Source: Serpentinicella alkaliphila
Lineage (GTDB): Bacteria > Bacillota > Clostridia > Peptostreptococcales > Natronincolaceae
Direction of reading: 5' to 3'
Assembly (NCBI RefSeq): GCF_018141405.1
Contig: NZ_CP058648.1
Span: 325,001 to 389,000 of the forward strand
Length of the DNA stretch: 64,000 nucleotides
Shown here: positions 5,384 to 7,745 of the stretch, in pieces
Layout: every line of letters starts with the position of its first letter
How positions within the stretch are numbered: the first letter of the stretch is position 1
Translations under genes and position numbers: made by a program
The notes under the pieces: generated by a model
What the model saw: the letters and a program-made list of their open reading frames with translations, nothing else
Databases searched by the model: none
Told to the model about the DNA's origin: nothing

Positions 5384-6106
5384 CTATAATACTTTATTTA
5401 AGAATGATTGAGTTCTTTCGTTTTTAGGATTAGTAAAGATGTCTACTGGTTTACCTTCTTCGACTATCATTCCCTCATCCATAAACAATACTCTATCCCC
5501 TACTTCTCTAGCAAAGCCCATTTCATGAGTAACAACTACCATAGTCATACCTTCTTTAGCTAGGCTTTTCATTACTTCAAGAACTTCCCCAACCATTTCT
5601 GGGTCTAAGGCAGAAGTTGGCTCATCAAACAACATAACCTTAGGTTTCATAGCTAGAGCTCTAGCAATAGCTACCCTCTGTCTTTGTCCACCAGAAAGTG
5701 TACCTGGGTATACATTAGCTTTATCTTTTAAGCCTACTCTATCTAGTAGCTGTAGGGCTGTTTTTTCTGCTTCATCTTTTGGTATATTTCTTACCTTCAT
5801 CGGAGCTAACATAATGTTTTCCAACACTGTCTTATGAGGAAAAAGGTTAAACAACTGAAATACCATACCTACTTCCTGTCTTACCTCGTTAATATTAGTA
5901 GATTTATCTAGAAGATTAACACCATCAATTAAAATTTCACCTTCACTTGCTTCCTCAAGTTGATTAATACATCTTAAAAATGTACTTTTTCCAGAGCCTG
6001 AAGGACCAATAACTACTACTACTTCACCGTGTTTTATCTCTGCATTAATTCCCTTTAAAACTTCTAACTTTCCAAATCTTTTTCTGAGGTCATTTACTTT
6101 AATCAC
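5384..6106 (-). CDS. Polar amino-acid ABC transporter ATP-binding protein (GlnQ-like)
   Basis: About 240-residue ATPase that energises uptake with the adjacent permease and binding protein. Seen: Walker [11 protein letters not shown]-loop [11 protein letters not shown], signature [16 protein letters not shown], Walker [15 protein letters not shown] and H-loop [12 protein letters not shown]. These are the classic features of the GlnQ/HisP subfamily. I prefer the GTG at 6106: an AGGAGG lies ten bases upstream and it overlaps the permease stop (GTGATTAA). The in-frame TTG at 6127 would overlap the permease by 29 bases and lacks its own ribosome site. It is the last gene of the operon. Confidence 0.95.
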
Positions 6107-6761
6107 TCTTACTAAACCTCCTCTCAAGATATGCTACAAATTGAGATAATGTTAAAGTCATAACTAAATATAGAAGTGAAACAACTAGCCATGTTTCAAC
6201 AAATCGGAATGTTCTACCTTGCATAATTCTTCCTGCCATCATTAAATCTTGAAGTGATATAACCGAAACTAAAGAAGAGTCTTTTAAAATTGCTATAAAC
6301 TCATTTCCTAGAGGTGGTATAGCACGTTTAAAAGCTTGGGGGATAATAATATATCTCATTGCTTGTGGATATGTCATCCCTAAAGATCTAGCTGCTTCCA
6401 TTTGCCCCTTATCAATAGATTGTATAGCACCTCTAAAAATCTCTGCTACATAGGCACCACTATTTAAGCTTAGAGCTATTGTTCCAGATATTAATGGGTT
6501 AAAGGCACTAATCCCTAAAAATTGTGGAGTACCAAAGTGTATAAGAAATATCTGAGCCATTAATGGAGTTCCTCTTAAAAACTCTACATATCCTTTTGCA
6601 AACCATCTTAATGGTGGAATACTAGATAATCTTAATAAACTAATAACAAGTCCGATTATTGTTCCAACAGCAACTGAAACAACAGATAATTGTATGGTTA
6701 ATCTAACTCCTTGCATTAACAAAGGTAGATAATCAACAATTACATTAAAACGAAAATCCAT
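6099..6761 (-). CDS. Polar amino-acid ABC transporter permease (His/Glu/Gln/Arg family)
   Basis: 220-residue inner-membrane permease of the HisM/GlnP type. Several hydrophobic helices run from about residue 10 to 210. The conserved cytoplasmic EAA loop ([20 protein letters not shown]) contacts the ATPase. The start is placed at the ATG at 6761, because AGGAGG lies six bases upstream. The next in-frame upstream ATG (6779) sits before that Shine-Dalgarno. It probably works as a homodimer, since only one permease gene is present. It follows the binding-protein gene after a terminator-like hairpin and overlaps the ATPase gene by 8 bases. Confidence 0.94.
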
Positions 6762-6859
6762 AGAAATCCTCCTTTTCATTTGGATAAAAACATTATAACA
6801 TGATTTCTACTTAAAACGTATTTAACAATCAATATAAATATGTTAATTATTGGTGACAT

Positions 6860-6894
6860 TAAAAAGTAGGTGTTACCTTGGCACCACCTACTTT
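6860..6894 (-). terminator. Intraoperonic terminator-like hairpin
   Basis: Nine-base stem (6864-6872 with 6885-6893, AAGTAGGTG arm) followed on the minus strand by TTTTT. It lies between the substrate-binding-protein gene and the permease. Such hairpins often let the binding protein be made in excess over the membrane parts. Confidence 0.75.
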
Positions 6895-6914: not shown

Positions 6915-7745
6915 TTATTTTTGACCTTCTAAATAGTTTGTAATTGCGATATCTCCAGTTGTACCATTTTGAACACCGATTTTTTTACCTTTTAGGTCTT
7001 CTAAGCTTTTGATTGTAGATCCTTCTTTAACCGCGATATATTGTGTAGCTTCAAAATATGGGTTAGAGAAAGTAACTGTTTCTTGTCTTTTCTCTGTAAT
7101 TGTCATTGCAGAAATAATTAGATCTATATTTCCAGCTATTAATGAAGGAATTATTCCATCCCAGTTTGTATTTATTAATTCAACTTTAAAGCCCATCTCA
7201 GCTCCAATAGCTCTTATTAAGTCCATATCAAAACCTTCTGGTTGACCTTTGTCATTAACATACTCAAATGGAGCATAAGCCATATCAGCACCAGCTTTTA
7301 TTGTAATCCCTAATGTATTCTCTCCTTCTTCAACTACATACTCAGTTCCATCTCCGAAGTAGTTGTTAAAGATTTTGTCATAAACTCCATTAGCGATTAC
7401 TCTTTCTAATCCTTCATTTATTAATTCATGAATTTCTGTATCTTGTTGTCTCATTGCAATACCATAAAACTCTTTTTCAAAGCTTTCATCTCCAAATGCA
7501 GTTAATCCTGTACTCGGGTTGTTTGCTAAAAACTCTAAAACTACTGGTGAATCCGCAACTACTGCATCTACTCCACCGTTAATTAACTCTGTTAAAGCTG
7601 CTGGTATATCACCATATCTTTGAATGGTTCCAGCGTTGTTATTGTTGTTAGTAGTATCTGCAGGTTTGCTAGAACATCCAGCTAAAAGTGCAATTGTTAG
7701 AATAATTATTAGAACAGTTGAATATTTTTTCATAATTTTATTCAA
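6915..7745 (-). CDS. Circularly permuted amino-acid-binding lipoprotein (SBP_bac_3)
   Basis: 276-residue solute-binding lipoprotein for the neighbouring ABC transporter. Its signal peptide ends in LLAGC (Cys24), followed by an Asn-rich linker. The binding domain is in swapped order compared with GlnH-type proteins. Residues 40-131 match the usual C-terminal part (RYGDIPAALTELINGGVDAV to YDKIFNNYFGD). A short acidic linker then leads into residues 144-276, which match the usual N-terminal part (AYAPFEYV, GFDMDLIRAIG, AMTITEKR, TFSNPY, GVQNGTTGD). The protein stops at NYLEGQK, exactly where the first part would normally follow. Ligand residues (Arg220, the GTTGD loop, Asp66) are all present. 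The TTG start is supported by a GGGGAG seven bases upstream. See findings. Confidence 0.9.
   Translation of the reverse strand: MNKIMKKYSTVLIIILTIALLAGCSSKPADTTNNNNNAGTIQRYGDIPAALTELINGGVDAVVADSPVVLEFLANNPSTGLTAFGDESFEKEFYGIAMRQQDTEIHELINEGLERVIANGVYDKIFNNYFGDGTEYVVEEGENTLGITIKAGADMAYAPFEYVNDKGQPEGFDMDLIRAIGAEMGFKVELINTNWDGIIPSLIAGNIDLIISAMTITEKRQETVTFSNPYFEATQYIAVKEGSTIKSLEDLKGKKIGVQNGTTGDIAITNYLEGQK

Follow-up and report, generated by a model that had tools for sequence, protein, structure and literature searches.

A circularly permuted SBP_bac_3 lipoprotein in a predicted amino acid ABC importer operon of Serpentinicella alkaliphila, and other permuted members of the family in its phylum

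Can a substrate-binding protein (SBP) carry the two parts of its domain in exchanged order and still serve an ABC importer? The question is raised by ORF 6915-7745 in the window, by which we mean the whole 64,000-nucleotide stretch of Serpentinicella alkaliphila DNA that was analyzed (Table 1). Its TTG start has GGGGAG 7 nt upstream. In a whole-genome search, the Pfam model PF00497 (SBP_bac_3) gave two same-frame matches in this ORF, one near the N-terminus to model positions 97-131 (8e-5) and one near the C-terminus to positions 1-97 (1e-33), so that the N-to-C order of the profile is reversed; the two other SBP_bac_3 genes of the genome are both in normal order. Together the two stretches score 137.6 bits by hmmscan, above the Pfam cut-off of 26.4 and similar to the 140.6 bits that a conventional relative, L037, reaches in a single stretch. 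Our own HMM, built from conventional-order relatives and describing the domain in 222 positions, likewise does not run through the protein in normal order: residues 30-131 correspond to positions 123-222 and residues 148-273 to positions 5-130, and most members of the clade described below read 131-222 and then 5-130. The block that now comes first consists of the rest of lobe 2, the second hinge strand, and the last lobe-1 helices, and the block that now comes last consists of the start of lobe 1, the first hinge strand, and the GTTGD loop and helix of lobe 2. The two blocks are essentially complementary, with the whole domain present once and nothing substantial lost or repeated. The ORF thus encodes a complete SBP_bac_3 lipoprotein in circularly permuted order, as an earlier note made from the letters of the window had claimed; the block borders it drew, and the new termini it placed between the helix after GTTGD and the lobe-2 strand IQRYGD, agree with ours within a few residues.

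Table 1. Features of the permuted SBP gene and its operon in the window
Feature	Position	Strand	Basis or remark
Permuted SBP_bac_3 lipoprotein gene	6915..7745	-	276 aa, TTG start, stop codon included
Signal peptide with lipobox LAGC, residues 1-24; Cys24 likely lipidation site	7674..7745	-	translation; model
C-terminal domain block, now first, residues 40-131	7353..7628	-	PF00497 97-131; own HMM 123-222
Linker from old C-terminus to old N-terminus, residues 132-147, DGTEYVVEEGENTLGI	7305..7352	-	alignments
N-terminal domain block, now last, residues 148-276	6918..7304	-	PF00497 1-97; own HMM 5-130
Hairpin and T-run between SBP stop and permease	6863..6894	-	fold -16.2 kcal/mol, z -1.9
GlnP/cystine-permease-like permease, HEQRo family	6099..6779	-	NCBIfam TIGR01726 above cut-off
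GlnQ-like ATPase	5384..6127	-	NCBIfam PRK09493 352.6 bits, below cut-off 379

The same block order is found in 13 other full-length homologues, which are 56-67% identical to the window protein, and in 2 more that are cut by contig ends; chance is excluded by the scores together with the conservation of the whole permuted order in the full-length set. A scan of genome contigs yielded two genes of metagenome-assembled genomes in this order (L035, 64% identical; L036, 61%), and a profile built from these two and the window protein detected it in 15 of the 100 genomes of a set around that of L035. The order is concentrated in family f158, where 11 of 20 genomes and 8 of 12 genera carry it. Within the window's own class it occurs in one genome of 391, namely the window's own, and none of 60 near relatives scanned for a colinear match showed one. 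The linker is also conserved across the clade and reads DGxxYxVxESDNRLxxT in the alignments, or, in its longer form, YFG-DGxxYxVxESDNRLxxTYxVAxDMAYAPFE.

For phylogenetic analysis, the permuted sequences were turned back to conventional order. The 14 permuted proteins form one clade (100/98) that adjoins two conventional proteins, L187 and L188 (88/94); an EamA gene likewise neighbors the operons of these two. When trees of the N-half and the C-half were run separately, the permuted rows stayed together in both, and the C-half tree left the sister of the group unresolved; a derivation of the two halves from different paralogues is rejected by this result. Permease and ATPase sequences also group the permuted operons, weakly (75/86). 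L188 is uncut in the cut region, with the sequence TTGDMAITKFLGKNYDGIKRFGG; in the permuted clade the corresponding stretch is split between the C-terminus (TTGDIAITKYLG...) and the beginning of the domain behind the lipobox (...VKRF), so the cut lies within one short loop of lobe 2. These comparisons show a single origin of the permuted order in this clade. Since the order is present in one of the 391 genomes of the window's class and the clade is centered on f158, horizontal gain is likely, and the window's species probably acquired the operon in this way. The direction of transfer is weakly supported, because the window protein branches first within the clade in one full tree and in the N-half tree, and is nested in the other trees.

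How such an order arises is a separate matter. Circular permutation is usually proposed to arise by duplication followed by trimming. Applied here, this would mean that a conventional gene of the GlnH type, in an operon like the present one, was duplicated in tandem and the outer halves were then lost, and we regard this as the most likely origin. Tandem forms exist in relatives: a fused two-domain SBP (L270 1088-2638), adjacent SBP genes at L041, and two adjacent SBP genes at L271 878-2497 that share a frame, with a single stop codon between them. L270 and L271 may represent stages of the route. The fused domains SBD1-SBD2 of GlnP (6h30) align colinearly across the C1-N2 junction. The alternative is a real and functional permutation that came about without tandem duplication, for instance by cutting and rejoining through circular DNA. 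It concerns the origin only and is compatible with the main reading of the protein. The blocks are complementary without a large leftover overlap, and no remnants of lost duplicate copies were seen in the flanks of the gene, both of which speak for such a route; the fused and adjacent tandem SBPs of relatives, and the general precedent for duplication with trimming, speak against it. We consider it the less probable of the two, though a serious possibility. Tandem duplication with loss of the outer halves, which the earlier note had suggested, thus keeps its place as a proposal: duplicates of the right kind exist, but no tandem intermediate was found in the window's clade.

AlphaFold predicts an intact two-lobed fold for the window protein (pLDDT 91.6, pTM 0.80); the model has the strands and helices that both lobes should contain, a helix at residues 2-22, and low confidence from residue 23. 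Fragments of conventional proteins, placed in permuted register, were part of the input alignment and may have aided the prediction. Aligned sequentially by structure, residues 144-276 match ArtJ, ArgBP, LAO, and GlnP domains, with Z up to 11.9. Such alignments (Foldseek, VIA-align) to conventional SBPs cover only about half of the chain, because a permuted protein is being aligned sequentially. The cut spares both hinge strands (around residues 91-100 and 231-241). Asp154, Phe160, Thr215, Arg220, Thr262/263, and Asp65, which we take to be the counterparts of the GlnBP/LAO ligand-contact positions, are invariant in the alignment of the three permuted sequences from the window, L035, and L036. 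In the model, the chain would begin within a lobe-2 surface loop and end at the helix that directly precedes it, with the old ends, both in lobe 1, joined by the linker of about 16 residues. Because both hinge strands are uncut, the protein would be expected to close around an amino acid as other class II binding proteins do, and would then pass it on to the permease and ATPase encoded downstream. What visibly differs is the lipid tether, which would leave from lobe 2 instead of lobe 1. From the fold model, the uncut hinges, and the kept pocket residues, we infer a working amino acid receptor tethered by lobe 2.

The operon is consistent with such a role. The permuted gene comes first in its operon, followed by genes for a GlnP-type permease and a GlnQ-type ATPase, and this is the context of polar amino acid ABC importers of the GlnHPQ/ArtJ type, where the SBP lies beside a HEQRo-type permease and a GlnQ-type ATPase. 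Within the permuted clade the permease is 63-72% identical and the ATPase 69-74%, the SBP-permease-ATPase order holds at every locus with enough flanking sequence, and at several loci an EamA transporter and a small upstream ORF are present as well. The nearest NCBIfam equivalogs for the SBP (lysine/arginine/ornithine, glutamine, and cystine) all score below their cut-offs. Very probably, then, the protein serves a polar amino acid ABC importer as its substrate-binding lipoprotein and has a circularly permuted SBP_bac_3 domain, with ligand binding and transport as the inferred part of this reading. The hairpin between the SBP and permease genes, which is not among the results of a scan for the terminator consensus, is a possible attenuating terminator and could allow more receptor than permease to be produced; such an excess is common for SBP genes. 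In several f158 genomes, a conserved ORF of 131 aa (MKKNSVSQFQTKVSELL...) lies directly upstream of the permuted SBP (L036 2459-2854; L035 282-677); it was not found beside the window's gene.

With the tether moved to lobe 2, the protein might instead be a sensor or scavenger and not a transport subunit. The anchor geometry read from sequence and model, which is unlike that of conventional SBPs, would fit this, but a permease and ATPase of matching type are adjacent wherever the flank is present, and we consider the idea very unlikely. A decaying or non-binding by-product of rearrangement has an even smaller chance of being the explanation. In its favor, the cut lies near the GTTG ligand loop; against it, the ligand motifs are invariant, the signal peptide and operon are retained, the predicted fold is confident, and dN/dS is 0.05-0.14 across the seven pairs with measurable dS (simple Nei-Gojobori), values that are rough because dS is high and that argue for purifying selection on the permuted clade. 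The earlier suggestion that the protein is probably functional, with all ligand motifs kept, is thus borne out by conservation. An assembly or binning artefact, in which a collapsed tandem repeat gives a false permuted ORF, is conceivable since tandem SBP duplicates occur in related genomes, but its probability is negligible given a window from a one-contig genome, a conserved linker, purifying selection, and the same order, signal peptide, and operon in the 13 other full-length genes, which come from independent assemblies of many species and answer the concern over misassembly voiced in the earlier note.

Conventional proteins of the GlnH/ArtJ type (AncQR, 4zv1; ArtJ, 2pvu; the GlnP SBDs, 6h30; L187, L188, and Desulfosporosinus L037) share the family, motifs, and operon type of the window protein and, going by the model, probably its fold, and are up to 58% identical to it in the N block, but differ in block order and in having the anchor on lobe 1. 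A natural circularly permuted ABC ligand-binding lipoprotein has been described in Treponema pallidum, namely the sugar-binding TpMglB-2 (Tp0684), designated “Type Ic / Cluster Bc,” for which binding and closure were demonstrated (PMC4990184). It resembles the window protein in being such a lipoprotein; however, it is of Type I (Cluster B), with a changed N-lobe strand order and a fourth hinge crossing, and the window protein is set apart by its membership of PF00497. A circular-permutation relation among glycine betaine-binding proteins, including Bacillus subtilis OpuAC versus ProX, was found with CPSARST (PMC2395249), and here, as for the window protein, class II binding proteins are involved. 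OpuAC and EgtUC align sequentially with the window model over most of its length; however, OpuAC belongs to PF04069, binds other ligands, and is 11-16% identical, and PF04069 scores 19.5 bits on the window protein, below its cut-off of 21.2. We found no report of permuted amino acid- or glutamine-binding SBPs, or of permuted SBP_bac_3 proteins, among the open papers searched. The statement in the earlier note that few permuted SBPs are known is thus true of the accessible literature but not of genomes, as described below. Permuted SBPs are already known as a kind; as far as we have seen, the SBP_bac_3 family, the recurrence, and a close natural pair are new.

Three further cut positions occur among SBP_bac_3 proteins of the phylum, at about 98, 109/110, and 167/168 of 222, compared with 130/131 in the window's clade. 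Genome G615 encodes a permutant cut at the hinge (L230 2458-3261; pLDDT of its model 91.8), and G651 encodes a conventional orthologue of the same family (L226 2264-3028). These orthologues are 76-79% identical and occupy the same comFA-comFC-SBP-permease locus, and the pair captures a permutation in place. Family f103 has the third cut position (L227, L228, L262-L264), and a lipoprotein of the window's own class (G244, L276 1438-2295) has the fourth, 167/168, just before the second hinge strand. The hinge-cut domain is fused to a permease in L233 (Pfam), and the ORFs of L265, L268, L269, L274, and L277 are, by length, long enough for the same fusion. L229 2029-4293 encodes 754 aa in the block order C-N-C-N followed by a permease, that is, two permuted binding domains and a membrane part. 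The hinge-cut permutants (G615 L230; f103 L227/L263/L264; L267; L163) and the fusions L233 and L229 show the same swap in the same domain family, but differ from the window's clade in cut points and tree places.

Matches of this survey were checked with conventional-order HMMs, and L270, L271, and L272 were rejected as permutants, being conventional tandem domains or adjacent genes, and left out of the count. Among the matches listed, permuted SBP_bac_3 proteins, one or more per genome, occur in at least 20 of the 396 genomes sampled from the phylum (~5%). A tree of all permutants implies six order changes, which may include reversals, at least five of them forced by well-supported branches. 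Considering these changes, the four cut positions, the number of genomes, the G615/G651 pair, and the permease fusions, permutation is likely to be a recurring and ongoing mode of evolution of the phylum's SBP_bac_3 proteins. Many natural circular permutants are recognized only through deep relationships at the level of structure. With permuted and unpermuted orthologues in the same neighborhood, some 76-79% identical, what a permutation costs or gains can be tested one protein at a time. For sensor design, a two-lobed scaffold with four natural cut points is a ready map, and the shift of the anchor from lobe 1 to lobe 2 offers a test of whether ABC import depends on tether geometry. Annotation of domains without regard to order hides such permutants as plain SBP_bac_3.

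Permutants that arose separately (L230, L276, and the window's clade) have similar linkers, with the elements GTDF-V--ESD and YFGDGT, and that of L276 also begins YFGDGT. The likeness may reflect chance, convergence, or recombination. A permuted ancestor common to the window's clade and the G615 protein, considered because of their similar linkers (SGTDFKVEPVESDK vs DGTDFTVQESDN), is rejected by an AU test of one clade (p 0.0017). The ATPases of hinge-cut systems carry an extra C-terminal domain of ~110 residues (L163 3809-4915, L229 4290-5372, and L233 3571-4650), possibly HATPase-like.
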